Shown here: positions 21,276-28,236 of the stretch, piece by piece
Layout: each line of letters starts with the position of its first letter
Numbering within the stretch: the stretch's first letter is position 1
Source: Cohaesibacter gelatinilyticus
Lineage (GTDB): Bacteria > Pseudomonadota > Alphaproteobacteria > Rhizobiales > Cohaesibacteraceae
DNA length: 64,000 bases
Reading direction: 5' to 3'
NCBI RefSeq assembly: GCF_900215605.1
Contig: NZ_OBEL01000001.1
Span: 1,364,001-1,428,000, forward strand
The notes under the pieces: generated by a model
The model's input: the letters and a program-made list of their open reading frames with translations, nothing else
Databases searched by the model: none
What the model was told of the DNA's origin: nothing
Position numbers and translations under genes: made by a program

Positions 21276-21317
21276 ACCTATTTCAATTCCACCACACTAG
21301 TGACCGGGGGACAAACC

Positions 21318-21815
21318 ATGCACCTGCTCGATAGCTCAATTTCCAAGGCGGAACAGATCATTTCTCTAGCCAGTCAACGTGGATGGATGATTGCAACAGC
21401 TGAATCCTGTACGGCTGGTCTGATTGCAGCTACCTTGACGGAAGTAGCAGGTTCATCAGCGGTCATTGATCGCGGATTTGTGACTTATTCCAATGAAGCA
21501 AAAATGGATATGCTCACAATACCTGAAGATATCCTTGTCGAACATGGAGCCGTTAGTGAACCAACAGCCAAGGCTATGGCCAGAGGCGCTCTTGCCAATT
21601 CACAAGCCAGCCTTAGTATTTCCGTTACGGGCATCGCTGGTCCTGGGGGTGGTAGTGAGGATAAACCGGTTGGTTTGGTGCATTTTGGTCTCGCAACAGA
21701 ACAAGATCTAATCAATGACATACAGATTTTCAAAAACCACAATCGAGCACAGGTTCGCGCGCTGACAGTTGATCATGCTCTTGCGATGATCATACAGAGG
21801 CTGCAGGAAATCTGA
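21318..21815 (+). CDS. pncC: CinA-family protein, nicotinamide-nucleotide amidase type
   Basis: A 165-residue stand-alone CinA C-terminal domain. Members deamidate nicotinamide mononucleotide to NaMN in pyridine nucleotide recycling. The motif TAESCTAGLIAATLTEVAGSS and the SVTGIAGPGGGSEDKPVGLVHFG stretch are intact. I chose the ATG at 21318, which has CGGGGGAC upstream, over a GTG at 21300. The location beside ispDF is common in Hyphomicrobiales. Confidence 0.92.
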   Translation: MHLLDSSISKAEQIISLASQRGWMIATAESCTAGLIAATLTEVAGSSAVIDRGFVTYSNEAKMDMLTIPEDILVEHGAVSEPTAKAMARGALANSQASLSISVTGIAGPGGGSEDKPVGLVHFGLATEQDLINDIQIFKNHNRAQVRALTVDHALAMIIQRLQEI

Positions 21816-21934
21816 TTTTTCACCACTTACCTGTCATAAAACAGCTCTGGATCCTCTGATATTCATATTGATTATGACACCCCCCATACCTACCATCCCG
21901 CAATATATATTGATTCTATTTTGGTGTATTTTGA

Positions 21935-22342
21935 ATGACCGCCCCTTATGGTTTTGTGAATTCCGCACCGTCCCCTGAAAGCTACCACTGGATTATCGAA
22001 CTATATGGCGCCGATAATCTGGAAAATTGTGAAGCCATAGCTCATGCTATGAAAACCGCTGCCAGCAAGGCCGGAGCGACTGTATTGGACTGCAAGCTCC
22101 ACCATTTTGGTGAAAATCAAGGAGTAACTGGCGTTGCTTTGTTGGCAGAATCCCACATATCCATTCATACATGGCCTGAGTTTCGCTACGCGGCAATCGA
22201 TGTGTTTATGTGTGGTTCGACCAATCCAAAAGCGAGCGCTGACCATCTGAAAGAATTCTTCAACGCAGAAGATGCTGTCATACAGATAATTCCCCGTGGC
22301 CGAAATCTGGACATGTCTGCTCCTGATGCGTTGGGATTATGA
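21935..22342 (+). CDS. speD: S-adenosylmethionine decarboxylase proenzyme
   Basis: A 135-residue prokaryotic AdoMet decarboxylase. It supplies decarboxylated AdoMet as aminopropyl donor for spermidine synthesis. The self-cleavage site is Glu72-Ser73 in LLAESHISIHTWPE; Ser73 would become the pyruvoyl group. His78 and Cys93 (DVFMCGS) match the processing His and active-site Cys of the family. There is no obvious Shine-Dalgarno before the ATG. It is the first gene of a same-strand cluster that ends with a membrane-anchored spermidine synthase, so the pathway partners are together. The rhomboid-GNAT gene begins at about its stop codon. Confidence 0.95.
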   Translation: MTAPYGFVNSAPSPESYHWIIELYGADNLENCEAIAHAMKTAASKAGATVLDCKLHHFGENQGVTGVALLAESHISIHTWPEFRYAAIDVFMCGSTNPKASADHLKEFFNAEDAVIQIIPRGRNLDMSAPDALGL

Positions 22343-22355
22343 TGTGCAGAATGCA

Positions 22356-23663
22356 ATGCGCGATATATTATTAAAGGCTCCTGTAACTGCCTCTCTCACT
22401 CTTGGTGCATTGACTGCTTATGCATATTATGGCGCTGGCGGTCTACCAACACAGGGTCTGCATGGGTTGGAGTTGATATCGACTATTGCACAGAACATCT
22501 TTCATCATGGAAACTTCATTCATCTGTCCGGCAATATCGCAATTATTGGCCTGTTTGGCTGGAACCTTGAGCCTCAACTTCCTTCAAAAATCTGGATGAT
22601 AATCATTGGGTCTCTTCTGACCATTCCAACCTTGTTCGAATATCTCTTTTTTGGTGCCAATTTTATCGGCTTGTCTGGCGTCGCTTATGGTTTGGCGACC
22701 TATGCTATCTTCAACCTGACCGATTTCTATCTCAGAATATTCGGTGCAATCTGGCTTTTTTTCAGCTTCGTTGCAGAGCCATTGCTCGCAGATAACGAAA
22801 TAGCCATGGCATCTCACGGAACTGCAATTCTATGTGGAGGATTTTTCTCAATGTTTGGCTCCCTATTTGGTTCGTCCAAGCCAACAGTAAAGCCGATGAA
22901 CGTGACACACCTGAATGAGGCTGTAGCCATCATTGCTCAGACGGATGACGATGATGCAGATGAAGCTTTTGAGGATCTCAAAAACAAACAATGCCAGAAC
23001 ATGTTCGTTCTACTCGAACGTGGCAAGGTTCTTGGAGTAACAGGCTTTACACCGGTTGATGGCTCCAATGACAGCGCGTGGCTTTCGTGGACATATCTCG
23101 ATGAAGTTCAACAGGGAAAAGGTCTCGGCAGATTTTTATTGGACGGTCTTTTGGAGCATTTATCCAATATTGGCGTCCGTAAGCTTTTCATTTCCTCTTC
23201 CGACTACAAGGAAGATGGTGAATGCATTTATGCCGCTGCCCATAAAATGTATGAGAGCCTTGGAGCGCAAAAGGAATTGATCGTCGAGGATTATCACGAC
23301 GAAGGTGAGGCCAAGATCATATACAGCCTGATAAACACGTCTCAGGAAGCCGCACCACCAAGCACTCTCGATCCAATCAAGGGAATTGAGTTTTCCAATC
23401 CTATCCGTGCCGAAGAATCCAAAAACGGTTTTGCTCTTCATTGGGCCGTAAAAGGCGAAGGAATCTCGGGATTGGATACAGCAATCGCAGAGGCGGATAA
23501 ACAGTATTTCTCACCCGTTTATGTGGTTCTACCAGCGGACGTTTCGAAGTTTACAGCTACTGATCTAAAAGACCAAGGTTTTGAAAAAGTGGGATCTTTG
23601 ACGGATTTCTATGAAGTTGGTCTTGATCAAATCTGGTGGGAACGAAAGAGAAGCAACCACTGA
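22356..23663 (+). CDS. Rhomboid intramembrane protease fused to GNAT acetyltransferase
   Basis: A predicted 435-residue fusion. Residues about 5-172 form a rhomboid domain: FHHGNFIHLSGN (with His56 and Asn60), GLSG with candidate nucleophile Ser107, and SHGTAILCGGFF with His154, all on hydrophobic helices. Residues about 182-328 form a GNAT domain with acetyl-CoA loop QQGKGLGRFLLDGLL (from 253) and an ALSWTYLDE-like strand before it. Residues about 340-435 look like a second, degenerate GNAT-like half ending GFEKVGSLTDFYEVG. It sits directly after speD and upstream of a membrane spermidine synthase. Polyamine or protein acetylation at the membrane is a guess; the proteolytic target is unknown. 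The start could also be the ATG at 22326, inside speD. Confidence 0.8.
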   Translation: MRDILLKAPVTASLTLGALTAYAYYGAGGLPTQGLHGLELISTIAQNIFHHGNFIHLSGNIAIIGLFGWNLEPQLPSKIWMIIIGSLLTIPTLFEYLFFGANFIGLSGVAYGLATYAIFNLTDFYLRIFGAIWLFFSFVAEPLLADNEIAMASHGTAILCGGFFSMFGSLFGSSKPTVKPMNVTHLNEAVAIIAQTDDDDADEAFEDLKNKQCQNMFVLLERGKVLGVTGFTPVDGSNDSAWLSWTYLDEVQQGKGLGRFLLDGLLEHLSNIGVRKLFISSSDYKEDGECIYAAAHKMYESLGAQKELIVEDYHDEGEAKIIYSLINTSQEAAPPSTLDPIKGIEFSNPIRAEESKNGFALHWAVKGEGISGLDTAIAEADKQYFSPVYVVLPADVSKFTATDLKDQGFEKVGSLTDFYEVGLDQIWWERKRSNH

Positions 23664-23745
23664 TCCGGAAAACCATAAGATTTAAAATGTCGGTTTGACA
23701 AATTGTCGACCAATAGAACAAGACAAGTGAATATTGGAGAATTCT

Positions 23746-24342
23746 ATGTCATCTCTTAAAAATTTAGCCATCGTTGCCGTGCTCGGCTTCCTGGCCTATA
23801 CATTTTTCTTTAGCCCAAAGAGCGAGCAAACTGCTGATCTCGGTCAGGTTCTTGATCGCACCATGTTCGCAATTGAGAAATATGAGAACCACGCGCAAAA
23901 GCTCAATGCAACAAAGCTTACCGATGACAATATGGCTGAGTTCGGTAACTTTCTGGCACAGGTCATGAACTCAAACCCACGTTTCTATGACGAAGAACTG
24001 GGCATCAAGTTACGCAAAGACGCAGCATTTCAGGGTTTTGCAGACAAGAATAAGAATGGCACTCAGGAAGAGGGTGAAGGTGACGTATTCACTGTGGAGA
24101 TTGACAGCGAGAACAAGCGTATTATCGCCTCTGACGGAAACGGGGCTTCTTCCGATACACGTTTCTCCGGCTCAGGTCTTCTGACCGGTTTGCTGATTGG
24201 CCATCTATTGAGCCGCCAACGCTCTGCTGGCGTGAAACCTGGCTCATTCAACAATCGCCAGACAACTCCACGCAGTTCTTATCGCGCACCATCCAGTGCG
24301 CGCTCCGGTGCACGTTCTGGTGGCCTCGGTTCCGGCAAATAG
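23746..24342 (+). CDS. Small membrane protein with EF-hand-like loop
   Basis: A 198-residue protein of no family I recognise. An N-terminal membrane anchor (residues 7-22) is followed by a soluble, mostly helical region. An EF-hand-like loop lies at 100-111 (DKNKNGTQEEGE, with acidic or Asn side chains at positions 1, 3, 5, 9 and 12 and Gly at 6). A second hydrophobic stretch (about 143-155, LLTGLLIGHLL) precedes a Ser/Arg/Gly-rich basic tail. The ATG at 23746 follows GGAG. It lies between the rhomboid-GNAT gene and speE on the same strand, so a structural or regulatory role in that system is possible. A hairpin follows its stop. Confidence 0.75.
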   Translation: MSSLKNLAIVAVLGFLAYTFFFSPKSEQTADLGQVLDRTMFAIEKYENHAQKLNATKLTDDNMAEFGNFLAQVMNSNPRFYDEELGIKLRKDAAFQGFADKNKNGTQEEGEGDVFTVEIDSENKRIIASDGNGASSDTRFSGSGLLTGLLIGHLLSRQRSAGVKPGSFNNRQTTPRSSYRAPSSARSGARSGGLGSGK

Positions 24343-24361
24343 ACAAAACAAGATAACGCAT

Positions 24362-24384
24362 GAAGGGGCCTCAAAGGCCCCTTC
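24362..24384 (+). terminator. Hairpin inside the polyamine cluster
   Basis: A 9-bp perfect stem (GAAGGGGCC/GGCCCCTTC, 5-base loop) lies between the small membrane protein gene and speE, followed only by a short T-rich stretch (CACTTTC). It may attenuate or partly terminate transcription before speE. Confidence 0.65.
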
Positions 24385-24420
24385 TCACTTTCAAGCAGTC
24401 CGACACATTCGAGTTTCAAA

Positions 24421-26034
24421 ATGCTGGATCAACAAGAACCGACCAAAGCTCCAACAAGCTACGATACCCTCCCACCAGCCAAGGCGAGAATTCTACTTGT
24501 CTCCATTCTGGTCGTGGCTCTATGCGGTATCGTTTATGAACTGATTATCGGGACTGTATCCAGCTATCTGCTCGGTAATTCCGTCTATCAGTTTTCGCTG
24601 ACAGTCGGCTTCTTCATGTTCGCAATGGGCATCGGTTCTTATCTCTCACGATTTTTCAATAGCTGGCTCATTCAGGCATTCATCTATGTTGAACTGATAC
24701 TCGCCATTGTCGGGGGCATCTGCTCGATCAGCCTGTTCATGACATTCCCCTATGCACCCTGGATCTACCAGACCGCAATGCTTACCTTCATTCTGGTCAT
24801 TGGCATACTGGTGGGGTTGGAAATTCCATTGCTGACGAGAGTTCTGGCAGATGTGAAGGGAACCAGAGATTCCATTTCCGATGTCATGTCGCTTGACTAT
24901 ATCGGCGCACTGATAGGCTCAGTTGCTTTTCCTCTATTCCTGCTTCCAACCCTTGGCCTTATCACCTCTTCCTTCGCTATTGGCCTGATCAACTGCCTTG
25001 TCGCTCTGATCAATGTTTTCTGGCTAAGGGATTATCTGAGATACCCTAAACGCCTTGCAGGTTTGGTCATGCTGACATTGGCCCTATTGATCGGTTTGAC
25101 AGTCTATGCCGGACGGATCACCGCATTTGCTCAGCAGCATCTTTATTTCGACCGCATAGTCTGGGAGAAACAAACAAAATATCAAAGCCTTGTCATCACA
25201 TCTGACTGGGTCAAGCATGATATGCGCCTCTTCATTGATGGACATTTGCAATTCTCCGAAACAGATGAACACCGATATCACGAGGCCCTGATTCATCCGA
25301 CAATGTCATGGCAGGGAAAGCGCGAGAATATACTCATCCTTGGTGGCGGAGATGGCTTGGCGGTTCGTGAGATTCTGAAATATGACGATGTCAAAACCAT
25401 TGATCTTGTAGACATTGACCCGGACATGACCAAGCTTGGTAAAGGCTACGAACCCTTTCGCCGCCTGAACGAGGAAAGCTTGTCCAATCCAAAGGTCACA
25501 ATCTTCAATCAAGATGCCTTTGTCTTCATTCAGCATGCAAAGAAAACTTATGACAGGGTAATCATCGACTTTCCGGATCCGCACAACGAAGCAATCGCGA
25601 AGCTTTATTCAGTCGAGTTCTATCAAATGGTCCGCACCCGCCTGAACTCCGGCGCTGTCGTGGTCAGTCAAAGCTCCTCTCCTTTCCTCACCAAAAACAC
25701 TTTTTGGTCCATTGCCAGAACCATGGAAGAGATCTTCGGTCCGACCACAAACTACAATATCGCCATTCCTTCCTTCGGTGTCTGGGGGTTCAACATGGCC
25801 TTTGTTCCGGACGGAACAAAAAGAAGCACCATCACAAAGATGCCTGACAGTTTGAAATTCATGTCCAATTCCGTGTTTCAGGCTTCAAAGATCTTCCCGG
25901 TCGATATAGAACGGCCGGAAAAGCTGGCTGTCAATTCCATTTTCGAACCTGATCTTTACAAGGTCTATCTGAATGATTTGAAGGAAGGCCCCCTGGGCGA
26001 TCCCAGAACAGGCTTTCTCGGTCTCAAACCCTGA
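24421..26034 (+). CDS. speE: Membrane-anchored polyamine aminopropyltransferase (spermidine synthase)
   Basis: A 537-residue protein. Residues about 23-225 form some seven hydrophobic helices; residues about 235-500 are a spermidine-synthase-type Rossmann domain. The AdoMet-binding loop is LILGGGDGLAVREIL (GGGDG 308-312), then VDIDPDM. The catalytic loop DFPDPHNEAIAKLYS keeps both Asp positions of the aminopropyltransferase gate. It should transfer the aminopropyl group from dcAdoMet, made by SpeD at the start of this cluster, to putrescine or a related amine. Spermidine synthases with an N-terminal membrane domain are known, but their in-cell role is unclear. A convergent terminator follows the stop. 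Confidence 0.88.
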   Translation: MLDQQEPTKAPTSYDTLPPAKARILLVSILVVALCGIVYELIIGTVSSYLLGNSVYQFSLTVGFFMFAMGIGSYLSRFFNSWLIQAFIYVELILAIVGGICSISLFMTFPYAPWIYQTAMLTFILVIGILVGLEIPLLTRVLADVKGTRDSISDVMSLDYIGALIGSVAFPLFLLPTLGLITSSFAIGLINCLVALINVFWLRDYLRYPKRLAGLVMLTLALLIGLTVYAGRITAFAQQHLYFDRIVWEKQTKYQSLVITSDWVKHDMRLFIDGHLQFSETDEHRYHEALIHPTMSWQGKRENILILGGGDGLAVREILKYDDVKTIDLVDIDPDMTKLGKGYEPFRRLNEESLSNPKVTIFNQDAFVFIQHAKKTYDRVIIDFPDPHNEAIAKLYSVEFYQMVRTRLNSGAVVVSQSSSPFLTKNTFWSIARTMEEIFGPTTNYNIAIPSFGVWGFNMAFVPDGTKRSTITKMPDSLKFMSNSVFQASKIFPVDIERPEKLAVNSIFEPDLYKVYLNDLKEGPLGDPRTGFLGLKP

Positions 26035-26038
26035 AACG

Positions 26039-26069
26039 AAAAAGGCCCCCATTTGGGAGCCTTTTTGTA
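26039..26069. terminator. Bidirectional terminator between speE and the LysM/M23 gene
   Basis: An 8-bp outer stem (AAAAAGGC/GCCTTTTT) plus a 3-bp inner stem, with A- and T-runs that serve both strands, lies between the convergent genes. Confidence 0.85.
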
Positions 26070-26088
26070 TTTGATATGTGGAAGCCAA

Positions 26089-28236
26089 TCAAGAAGCAAC
26101 CAGATAGGGAACAGGATCGACCGGGTCGCCCTTGATGCGCAGTTCGAAATGCACCTGCGGGCTATCGACATTGCCGGACTTGCCAGCTTGAGCAATGATC
26201 TGCCCACGTCGAACCATTTGACCTTTGCTAACCAACAGCTTTTCGTTGTGAGCATATGCTGTAACCCAGCCATTTTCATGCTGCACCAGAACCAAATTGC
26301 CATATCCCTTCAGTTTGCTACCGGAATAGATGACCTTGCCTCCTTCAGCGACTCGAACAGACGTTCCCGCTGGTACGGCCAGATTGATTCCATCGTTACG
26401 GCCGCCATCACGTTTACGGCCAAAATTTGAAATAATCCGCCCCCGAACCGGCCAACGGAACTTCGGTGCACCAGCAGAAACGCTAGGAGCTGCAACAAGT
26501 CCGTTATTGTTGGCTGGTAAACGGTTAGCAACTTGTTGTGGTTGTGCATCCGACATGACCGGTTTGGTTTGGGCAGGAATTCCTCTAGGTTGGACTGCAG
26601 CGACACGCATCTTGCGCTTTGGCAATGCGCGAATTGGACCAGTTGGTTCAACACGAACCACAGGAAGACTTGCCTTAACCAATTGGCGCGGCTTCGCTGA
26701 AGGCAAACGCGTCAAAGAAGCGATGCCACTATTGACATGATACGGGTTGGATCCAATCGATGCAGTAGAGGTGTAATCGACACCTGTATTCCGTATTGCA
26801 GGAATATGCAATTGCTGACCCATTCGAACAGGCGACGATGTAGACAGCTTGTTAGCTGCTGCCAAATCCGCGAGTGGAACACTATAGCGGCGAGCAATAC
26901 CGGTCAAAGTGTCACCAGGCATCACCATATGACGCTGCGAAGCGTTTGCTTGCTGCTGCATACGGATCATCCGTTGCCCGTATGGTGTCCGGCTTTGCAA
27001 ACGCAACGGGTTGGCTTTTGGAGTGCGAATAACAGATGGTACATTTATAGCCTGGCTCAAAGACGCAACTCTCTGAGCCCCTCCATTGGACCCAGCCCCA
27101 TAATTGGGAACTTGCTGGTAAACCGGGATGAGAACCTGTTGACCAGAAGCAATGAAGCTACGATCTGGCAGGCCATTGACCTCAGCGATTGCCTTGGATG
27201 GCACACCATAGCGGCGAGACAATGCATTCAGATCTTCACCGGGGCGAACCTGCACCATGGTGCCACCAACACTGCTCCAGCGACCTGACATCCGTGGTTG
27301 CACCTGATTTTTATTCAATGAAACCGGAGCGACGGAAGCCACCCGATTGCCTTGACCATATGATGCAGGGCGTGTTGGTAGGCCGGCATTTGGAGAATAG
27401 ACAGTCTTGTTGATCGCAGCTGTTGAACCATAGTCAACGCCACGTTTGGTACGAGGCGCGGCTTTGGGAAGCGAGAAGAAATTTGAAATCACGGTCGCAA
27501 AGTTTCGCTTCGGCTGCACTTGAGCAGTTTGCTGATAGCCACCTTGCCCGTAGTTTGGCTGAGTATAAACCGGCTGAGACGGACGATTGGCTATCGGCCG
27601 AGCTGGCATTGGCTGATTGATTGCTGGTCTGGTAGCGGCGGTAGCAGCGTAGTCCACACCGGCGCGACGCCGCGGCGCTGCTTTTGGCAATGCATGAAAA
27701 CTGGAAATCACAACAGGCTTGGGATCAAGCTTTACCTTGGCAATGGAACCTGTTGCCAGATAATCAGCATTTGGACGCATCGCTTGCACGGGCGGTTGAT
27801 AAACCGGCACACGCTGCGCTGGAGCATTATAGACCGGAGCGGCATAAACAGGTGCGGCAGCCTGAGCAGGAGCTGCGTAAACTGGAACAGGTGCTGCATT
27901 ATAGACGGGCTGACGGGCAATTGAACCCGTTGTCAGGGGAGCCTGGACTGTCGGAACCTGAGCGCGCGGCGCGTTATAAACCGGGGCCTGATAAACTGGA
28001 GCTCTATAAGTAGCCTGCGGACGAACAGGAACCGCTGCGGGCATTGGCTGATTGTAAACGGGCTGCCCTGCCGGGCGACCCGTTGAAGCCGTGAAAATCT
28101 CTTTTTGATTGGAAGTAAACCCACCAAATGCAGGAGAACCAAATCGTTCAACCTCTCCACTGCAAGCAGAAATAGTTGATGCAACAGCAAACAATGCCGT
28201 CGTCGACAGAAACTTACGCAATACAGAATAGCTCAT
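26089..28236 (-). CDS. NlpD-like lipoprotein with two LysM and a degenerate M23 domain
   Basis: A 715-residue envelope protein. The signal peptide ends in a lipobox (ISAC, Cys25). A long low-complexity Pro/Ala/Tyr-rich region (about 50-300) holds many PVY-AP units and two LPKAAPR--RGVDY-type repeats; a third GVDY element is at 485. LysM domains lie at about 326-373 and 436-481, and an M23 (LytM) fold at about 592-715. The usual first metal ligands HxxxD are replaced (NDGIN), while the AYAHNE and VHFELR segments remain, so it is probably a non-catalytic activator of amidases, like NlpD/EnvC. It lies downstream of surE. Confidence 0.88.
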   Translation of the reverse strand: MSYSVLRKFLSTTALFAVASTISACSGEVERFGSPAFGGFTSNQKEIFTASTGRPAGQPVYNQPMPAAVPVRPQATYRAPVYQAPVYNAPRAQVPTVQAPLTTGSIARQPVYNAAPVPVYAAPAQAAAPVYAAPVYNAPAQRVPVYQPPVQAMRPNADYLATGSIAKVKLDPKPVVISSFHALPKAAPRRRAGVDYAATAATRPAINQPMPARPIANRPSQPVYTQPNYGQGGYQQTAQVQPKRNFATVISNFFSLPKAAPRTKRGVDYGSTAAINKTVYSPNAGLPTRPASYGQGNRVASVAPVSLNKNQVQPRMSGRWSSVGGTMVQVRPGEDLNALSRRYGVPSKAIAEVNGLPDRSFIASGQQVLIPVYQQVPNYGAGSNGGAQRVASLSQAINVPSVIRTPKANPLRLQSRTPYGQRMIRMQQQANASQRHMVMPGDTLTGIARRYSVPLADLAAANKLSTSSPVRMGQQLHIPAIRNTGVDYTSTASIGSNPYHVNSGIASLTRLPSAKPRQLVKASLPVVRVEPTGPIRALPKRKMRVAAVQPRGIPAQTKPVMSDAQPQQVANRLPANNNGLVAAPSVSAGAPKFRWPVRGRIISNFGRKRDGGRNDGINLAVPAGTSVRVAEGGKVIYSGSKLKGYGNLVLVQHENGWVTAYAHNEKLLVSKGQMVRRGQIIAQAGKSGNVDSPQVHFELRIKGDPVDPVPYLVAS

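Follow-up and report, generated by a model that had tools for sequence, protein, structure and literature searches.

Organization of the locus

The region analyzed here (hereafter, the window) is a stretch of 64,000 nucleotides from the genome of Cohaesibacter gelatinilyticus (contig NZ_OBEL01000001.1), in which open reading frames (ORFs) define a block of four genes, all on the plus strand, at positions 21935–26034. These encode an S-adenosylmethionine (AdoMet) decarboxylase (SpeD), a rhomboid domain fused to a tandem GNAT, a small protein that ends in Gly-Lys, and a spermidine-synthase relative joined to a membrane domain (membrane SpeE, mSpeE), as listed in Table 1. The cluster is intact and single-copy in this genome; it is real and conserved, and its operon class is partly known. 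Across the loci described below, the most constant pair is mSpeE together with a protein bearing a terminal lysine, and not mSpeE with the rhomboid-GNAT protein.

Table 1. Features of the four-gene block and its borders (window coordinates; TM, transmembrane)
Feature	Position	Strand	Basis
speD, class 1b S-adenosylmethionine decarboxylase, 135 aa	21935..22342	+	PF02675 and TIGR03330, both over cut-off
Rhomboid protease domain fused to tandem GNAT, about 439 aa	22344..23663	+	Pfam, alignment, AlphaFold2, Foldseek
Small protein, 198 aa, proposed acceptor	23746..24342	+	No Pfam/NCBIfam match; family alignment
Terminal Gly-Lys codons, just 5' of the stop codon (24340-24342); Lys is the proposed aminopropylation site	24334..24339	+
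Strong hairpin between genes 3 and 4	24362..24384	+	-19.4 kcal/mol, z -3.75
Membrane aminopropyltransferase mSpeE, 537 aa	24421..26034	+	NF002956, AlphaFold2
Seven-TM domain of mSpeE	24475..25140	+	Seven helices in AlphaFold2 model; hydropathy and charge, 100 homologues
Aminopropyltransferase domain of mSpeE, predicted extracytoplasmic	25150..26010	+	PF01564; DFPDP at residues 383-387
Terminator hairpin between mSpeE and convergent nlpD	26036..26068	+	-15.6 kcal/mol, z -4.45
Segment missing in congeners, between cinA (21300-21815) and nlpD (26089-28236, minus)	21816..26088		cinA and nlpD matches adjoin in 11/17 congeners

The membrane aminopropyltransferase

mSpeE matches the family model NF002956 (PRK03612) with 601.4 bits against a cut-off of 472 over residues 13–521, nearly its full length, and thus belongs to this family; its aminopropyltransferase domain also matches spermidine synthases in HMMER and Foldseek comparisons. 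Residues Q277, D282, E283, Y286, H287, D383, P385, D386, and P387 are kept in all 100 homologues, and among them Q277, D282, E283, Y286, H287, D383, and D386 are taken here to be donor-binding and catalytic residues with the same roles as in spermidine synthases. The catalytic motif DxPDP, likewise found in 100/100 homologues, stands where Bacillus SpeE has D-S-T-E-P and more closely resembles the D-L-A/T-D-P seen in thermospermine synthase and in the structure 7xif; this is consistent with an acceptor other than the usual one, although it does not prove one.

The AlphaFold2 model (predicted local distance difference test, pLDDT, 87.8; predicted template modeling score, pTM, 0.63) displays seven helices ahead of the catalytic domain. 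Averaged over the 100 homologues, Lys and Arg are abundant in the loops that follow helices 2, 4, and 6 and scarce in those that follow helices 1, 3, and 5. With seven TM helices and this charge pattern, the N-terminus is predicted to lie inside and the catalytic domain therefore outside the cytoplasm. Four acidic residues are located within the predicted TM helices: E134 and D159 are invariant (100/100), while E40 and E91 are Glu in 96 homologues and Gln in the other 4. These conserved buried acids may form a path for a cation.

The small protein and its lysine tail

The small protein, whose start is either ATG 23746 or TTG 23734, consists of an N-terminal anchor, an Asp/Asn-rich loop, and a tail rich in arginine, serine, and glycine (R/S/G) that ends ...RSGGLGSGK. 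It matched no Pfam or NCBIfam family at E values up to 1; its first-pass description as EF-hand-like has a conserved D-x-N-x-N stretch behind it, and no EF-hand model matched. All 40 intact members of the family, window included, end exactly in Gly-Lys; the member at L045 is cut by its contig and was excluded. A regular expression finds a lipobox in 13 of the 41 family rows, and since a lipobox entails export, the tails of these proteins should lie outside, as is predicted for the catalytic domain of mSpeE. One locus (L029, 1740-3063) encodes a small protein twice in tandem beside a single mSpeE, and each of the two ends in GK.

As the small family is patchy (a class-wide search of 385 genomes with a four-row alignment returned the own genome only), a genome collection and the mSpeE family were searched instead. 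mSpeE was sampled with NF002956 to see whether the GK end goes with the enzyme or is a property of the small family. Matches over the cut-off were found in 22 of 200 Pseudomonadota genomes (own genome included), in 19 of 119 genomes from the phylum of G634 (Sulfidibacter), and in 15 of 119 from the phylum of G635, a Pirellulaceae metagenome-assembled genome (MAG), with G634 and G635 themselves included in the counts; thus, membrane-fused spermidine synthases are not rare in the sampled genomes. The three phyla contributed 21, 20, and 16 loci, 57 in all, which leave out the window, a second copy in G715, and the hand-chosen L170, and take in L169, L171, and L172 from G634 and G635, the centre genomes picked via their GNAT relative. 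A partner ending in lysine is encoded at no fewer than 53 of these 57 loci, in part recognized by inspection of listings (48 end in GK, 4 in HK, and 1 in IK). With their last 25 residues removed, the 53 partners fall into 24 BLAST clusters, a count in which very short proteins may hide homology.

A mechanical rule was additionally applied to the 57 loci, which accepts ORFs on the same strand as mSpeE with a hydrophobic segment, a stop within 3 kb, and Gly followed by any residue at the end (G+X). The last residue was Lys at 39 loci, Ser at 4, Asp and Gly at 2 each, Ile, Asn, and Thr at 1 each, and Arg at none. The controls gave 1 Lys and 2 Arg on the other strand within 3 kb, and again 1 Lys and 2 Arg on the same strand beyond 3 kb. 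A looser rule, in which the end is Gly/Ser-rich and the penultimate residue is free, yielded Lys 31, Asp 4, Glu 2, and Arg 2. Since Arg is absent and Lys occurs at 39 loci among the same-strand G+X ends, lysine appears to matter beyond its charge.

This preference bears on two alternatives. The tail could be a ligand rather than a substrate, plugging the active site or channel of mSpeE to sense or regulate an enzyme that makes free polyamine outside; a terminal lysine does resemble putrescine, the tail is encoded beside mSpeE, and neighbours such as DUF350, PspA, and DUF4178 suggest a sensing role. We nevertheless consider this unlikely, as a mere plug would probably accept Arg, which is never seen among the same-strand G+X ends, and such fusions reportedly yielded no spermidine in the 2019 work of Li and colleagues. 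Lipid binding, for its part, would have no need of a lysine precisely at the end of the chain and would not select against Arg, which argues against the least probable of the alternatives weighed here, namely that mSpeE aminopropylates a lipid or other envelope component while the K-tailed protein serves as a scaffold or membrane sensor whose terminal lysine binds anionic lipids. That alternative draws on the membrane setting, on the many R/S/G-rich tails, and on the role in membrane dynamics proposed for PspA-linked operons in PMC11237479.

Beyond the 57 loci, same-strand lysine ends were found at L104 (GK), L105 (HK), L106 (GK), L107 (VK), and L109 (GK), and L170 ends in VK. Alphaproteobacterial or related mini-proteins at L089, L107, and L170 end in IK or VK, so the glycine before the terminal lysine is not strict. 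Among eight soluble SpeE controls with flanks of about 1.5 kb (L074–L081), one (L077) has a hydrophobic ORF ending in GK, and this ORF lacks the R/S/G tail. In the control table, Corynebacterium glutamicum has an NF002956 match over the cut-off. Matches in 23 loci on viral contigs were confined to query residues 243–483, the soluble part, and were not used; the plasmid loci L110, which is archaeal with 24% identity, and L111, which is short, were also set aside.

The tail as a module among the companions of mSpeE

The K-tailed ORFs range from 49 aa (or 46 aa at L187, where the contig start cuts the ORF) to 640 aa. In the 37 loci with a DUF4178 gene, where the assignment of tails was made partly by hand, the tail is located on a separate mini-gene ORF of 46–146 aa in 27, on a larger separate protein of 334–367 aa in 4 (L092, L098–L100), and on the DUF4178 protein, as its C-terminal end, in 5 (L082, L083, L086, L165, L167); L096 has none. 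As it is carried by a mini-gene, a larger protein, or a DUF4178 fusion, the K-tail behaves as a module. It is the most constant companion of mSpeE, though partly hand-assigned; the other companions in the 57 loci, counted with phmmer as lower bounds, are DUF350 (at least 49), DUF4178 (at least 37), a flavin amine oxidase (at least 25), SpeD (at least 22), PspA (at least 7), and GNAT (at least 1).

The oxidase has an N-terminus resembling a twin-arginine translocation (Tat) signal in 22 of its 25 loci by regular expression; by eye, L184 is unconvincing, and L082 and L160, which the expression missed, look Tat-like. As to its identity, PF01593 matches the protein of L183 (8515-10131), and that of L084 matched FAD/NAD-binding models only. 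Because this partner is mostly Tat-like, an amine is likely to be handled outside the cytoplasm, which suggests that the flavin amine oxidase oxidizes the product amine there.

Proposed aminopropylation of the terminal lysine

In relatives of spermidine synthase, a primary amine sits in a deep pocket and receives an aminopropyl group there. A terminal lysine offers a primary amine and arginine does not, for which reason lysine is proposed as the acceptor. We propose that the block is an envelope protein-modification unit, in which mSpeE would aminopropylate the terminal lysine of its exported partner rather than form free spermidine, and we assign this reading a probability of about 0.55, the lysine modification as such having about even odds. 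It is supported by the invariance of the donor and catalytic residues, by the constant lysine ends and their modular placement, by the predicted location of the catalytic domain and the lipoprotein tails outside the cytoplasm, by the mostly Tat-like oxidase, by the probable separate spermidine route of the host described below, and by the clade that enzyme and tail family share. In the suggested sequence of events, the donor, decarboxylated AdoMet, would be made in the cytoplasm by SpeD, judged by its family. This cation may then cross the membrane through the seven-TM part of mSpeE, in which four conserved acidic residues lie buried, and the outer domain would transfer its aminopropyl group to the amine in the side chain of the lysine that ends the anchored small protein, as the constancy of that residue suggests. 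The modified tail would thus amount to a small polyamine, either N6-(3-aminopropyl)lysine or a longer form, borne by an anchored protein. In the GNAT-type branch, the cytoplasmic tandem GNAT might conceivably acetylate either the donor or a related amine; the rhomboid, an optional part, might cut the TM anchor of the small protein.

Several points weigh against this proposal. The loci cannot be treated as independent: one cluster holds seven acidobacterial loci that are close relatives, L169 and L051 are one and the same locus, and without L169, L171, and L172 the count becomes 50 of 54. The rules for tails were set after examples had been seen, and 8 of the 53 partners, which fail the hydropathy or the overlap condition, were added by hand (L086, L087, L088, L102, L156, L157, L159, L172); one rule catches the other 45, and its 46th hit, L096, was dropped. 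Four of the 57 loci have no K-ended tail (L085, L093, L096, L180), and at the plasmid locus L108, outside the 57, the only K-tailed candidate (HK) is on the other strand. SpeD lies within the fetched flanks of just 22 of the 57 mSpeE loci, and a GNAT gene at L040 has neither the small protein nor mSpeE nor SpeD beside it. The placement of the catalytic domain leans on helix count and charge, the pTM of the mSpeE model being 0.63, and in the 59-aa acidobacterial mini-proteins the TM segment is followed by several Arg, a pattern that under the positive-inside rule would leave the tail in the cytoplasm. Furthermore, we know of no precedent for export of decarboxylated AdoMet, and the modified lysine is a prediction rather than a direct sighting.

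Polyamine synthesis in the host

The genome has one SpeD and one SpeE-like protein, and the speD of the window is its sole PF02675 match. Elsewhere (L214, 149-3516; G000:C6 near 257278), genes for a carboxyspermidine dehydrogenase-like protein, an NspC-like protein, and an arginase-family protein adjoin; the saccharopine-dehydrogenase-type gene scores 438 bits with the carboxynorspermidine synthase model, under the cut-off of 800, and the NspC-like gene 394 bits, under the cut-off of 409. On these gene assignments, the host probably makes spermidine by a separate dehydrogenase/decarboxylase route. The first-pass suggestion that the middle genes of the block act on the same polyamine is rendered less likely by this probable route, its matches lying below curated cut-offs, beside the single SpeD and single SpeE-like protein, and by the finding reported for membrane-SpeE fusions in the 2019 work of Li and colleagues.

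The same route counts against an ordinary polyamine operon, in which SpeD and mSpeE would turn putrescine into spermidine or a related polyamine, GNAT would acetylate the product, and the rest would be accessory. The name of NF002956, polyamine aminopropyltransferase, and the intact donor and catalytic residues are what such an operon would be expected to show; however, it leaves the constant lysine tails without explanation, mSpeE has DxPDP in place of the D-S-T-E-P of Bacillus SpeE, and the 2019 work of Li and colleagues speaks to the contrary, as membrane-SpeE fusions reportedly do not replace spermidine synthase. This reading is judged improbable, slightly more so than that of the tail as a ligand.

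Distribution of the GNAT-type branch

A search of the genome collection with five GNAT queries returned 42 loci with a GNAT relative, in Alphaproteobacteria, Gammaproteobacteria, Sulfidibacter (Acidobacteriota), and the Pirellulaceae MAG (Planctomycetota). Within the fetched flanks, the small protein is present in 39, mSpeE in 37, and SpeD in 27 of the 42, and small protein and GNAT are recognizable down to about 30% identity; the co-occurrence of GNAT, small protein, and mSpeE is far above chance. The contig ends at two of the loci lacking the small protein (L036, L044) and at three of those lacking mSpeE (the same two and L045), and at L019, where no mSpeE is visible, masked sequence (N) follows; L040 has none of the three partners beside its GNAT. 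The first-pass annotation had asked whether the middle genes accompany the membrane SpeE beyond close relatives; they do so across distant bacteria, the trio recurring in Alphaproteobacteria, Gammaproteobacteria, and a planctomycete.

The mSpeE proteins of the GNAT/small-type loci, together with those of L171 and of L169 (identical with the L051 locus), form an exact clade of 38 of 100 leaves (FastTree support 1.0); thus, enzyme and tail family travel together. The rhomboid-GNAT emphasized in the first-pass annotation is not central: the tandem GNAT is unfused in 18 of 41 loci, and the GNAT type is one clade within a larger mSpeE family. L046 and L048 have a less closely related rhomboid part, and their GNAT and SpeD genes are divergently oriented to those for the small protein and mSpeE; at L035, SpeD is on the opposite strand.

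Within the genus, mSpeE had no match in any of 17 congeners, one of whose genomes is just 64% complete. In 11 of them, the DNA matches to cinA and nlpD adjoin, with gaps of 121 to 436 bases between the matched pieces; in the remaining six, cinA has no DNA match (G008, G012, G013, G015, G016) or is located on another contig (G005). Weak matches to the rhomboid-GNAT protein in two of the 17 congeners (L007 and L008, E about 2e-4 and 4e-4) were judged unrelated, being MarR-GNAT proteins by eye. Segment 21816-26088 was probably either gained as a block or lost by the congeners, and the four genes appear to be a transferable unit.

SpeD and the rhomboid-GNAT protein

SpeD matches PF02675 with 120.6 bits (cut-off 25) and TIGR03330 with 114.8 bits (cut-off 75.65). 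The start of gene 2 is GTG 22296, ATG 22326, GTG 22344, or ATG 22356. Its rhomboid part barely exceeds the PF01694 cut-off (26.6 against 22.6 bits); however, the model (pLDDT 92.5) has the six-TM core and the catalytic pair Ser111/His158, and His55, His60, Asn64, Ser111, and His158 are kept in all 21 fused rows of an alignment of 35 relatives. The GNAT part is supported by PF00583 (35.9 bits; cut-off 20.7) and by Foldseek matches to GNAT structures (best 2r7h, E 1.1e-10). The first GNAT retains QGKGLG, presumably the acetyl-CoA loop motif, and the second GNAT-like part is degenerate. The tandem GNAT is expected on the cytoplasmic side of the membrane, both because acetyl-CoA is found there and because of the six helices of the rhomboid.

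Fusion to the rhomboid was found in 23 of the 41 loci, L044 being left out because of its shortness, and the idea that the fusion is unique to this genome, which had arisen from unfused relatives, was rejected. Rhombosortases act on a GlyGly-plus-TM sorting signal; such a reading (TIGR03902, 21.6 bits; cut-off 84) was likewise rejected, the tail having no such signal. The rhomboid might instead cut the N-terminal TM anchor and release the modified small protein, an addition compatible with any of the readings above. In this respect, the small protein is TM-anchored in 22 of 25 rows with a fused rhomboid against 6 of 16 without (Fisher p 0.0014), where TM-anchored means the absence of a lipobox match and the test is uncorrected for relatedness, many fused loci being from Rhodobacteraceae. 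Three fused rows have lipoprotein anchors, and cleavage is regarded as possible but rather unlikely, the rhomboid residues kept in the fused rows speaking in its favour.

Relation to known systems and significance

Li and colleagues reportedly described, in 2019, clusters of speD with a fusion of a major facilitator superfamily (MFS) protein and spermidine synthase, with a role outside spermidine synthesis. In those clusters, too, speD reportedly adjoins a membrane-fused SpeE, and an acceptor other than putrescine was proposed; unlike here, that acceptor was reportedly left open, and GNAT, rhomboid, small protein, and lysine tail are not known to feature in that work. For membrane-fused spermidine synthases, the constant terminal lysine names a concrete candidate acceptor.

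In Ravi et al. (2024; PMC11237479), PspA operons are described that contain a 7TM-spermidine-synthase, DUF350, DUF4178, and a lipoprotein, and aminopropylation of other substrates is mentioned. The 7TM plus spermidine-synthase enzyme and the lipoprotein partner are shared with the present loci. In contrast to those operons, DUF350, DUF4178, and the oxidase are absent from the fetched flanks, many of them short, of all 43 GNAT-type loci, window included, whereas DUF350 occurs in at least 49 of the 57 sampled mSpeE loci. The words 'lysine', 'GNAT', and 'rhomboid' are absent from the main text of that article. Of the class combining speD, membrane SpeE, and DUF350, the GNAT type thus has speD beside membrane SpeE (in the window, and SpeD in 27 of the 42 loci) and, within the fetched flanks, no DUF350.

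Aminopropyl units on lysine side chains of proteins have a precedent in diatom silaffins (PMC3820600), which differ in being eukaryotic, in having many such lysines per protein, and in serving silica formation.

A parallel with other chemistry is possible in E. coli, where YgiB (L217, 1745-2416) and YjfM (L218, 6388-7026) have R/S/G-rich tails ending in Gly-Gly and lie beside genes annotated as peptide--spermidine ligases, the yjf operon also having DUF350 and PspA. YgiC and YjfC were reportedly described by Pederick and colleagues in 2023 as peptide-spermidine ligases, presumably of the ATP-grasp type. In both settings, a lipoprotein-like R/S/G-tailed protein stands next to a polyamine-attaching enzyme; however, a tail ending in GG could form an amide between its carboxylate and spermidine, whereas here an aminopropyltransferase meets a terminal lysine. 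In the present block, no ATP-grasp ligase adjoins the small protein, whose neighbours are the rhomboid-GNAT and SpeE, flanked by cinA and an nlpD-like gene, and the tail ends in GK, not Gly.

More broadly, and more tentatively than for the block itself, a widespread bacterial modification may exist in which exported, anchored proteins are aminopropylated on their C-terminal lysine by membrane-bound relatives of spermidine synthase, with decarboxylated AdoMet delivered through the seven-TM domain of the enzymes themselves; the K-tail would be portable, from 49-aa mini-proteins to DUF4178 C-termini, and alongside the YgiB/YgiC type would exemplify a more general use of polyamine tails on proteins of the envelope. 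If true, this would be a new protein modification, with an aminopropyltransferase acting outside the cytoplasm, and would explain a set of DUF-rich envelope operons.

No description of the lysine tail was found in the literature searched, although the full texts of the 2019 and 2023 reports could mention it; as far as the search reached, the terminal-lysine rule and the GNAT/rhomboid branch are new. The first-pass view of an undescribed system therefore holds, within that search, for the GNAT/rhomboid variant and the tail, and not for speD/membrane-SpeE operons as such, which are represented in PMC11237479 and, reportedly, in the 2019 clusters.

Transcription signals

The hairpin between genes 3 and 4 was not mentioned in the first-pass annotation, which had described the four genes as running on one strand with short gaps. 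It is strong and GC-rich, and transcription across the gap is consequently not certain. No clean T run follows its stem; it is possibly an attenuator or RNA processing site that might limit or process the transcript. The block does end, as first described, at a terminator, which a simple hairpin scan did not list because its stem has one mismatched pair. Of the flanking ORFs, cinA was named by Pfam and the nlpD-like one by eye.

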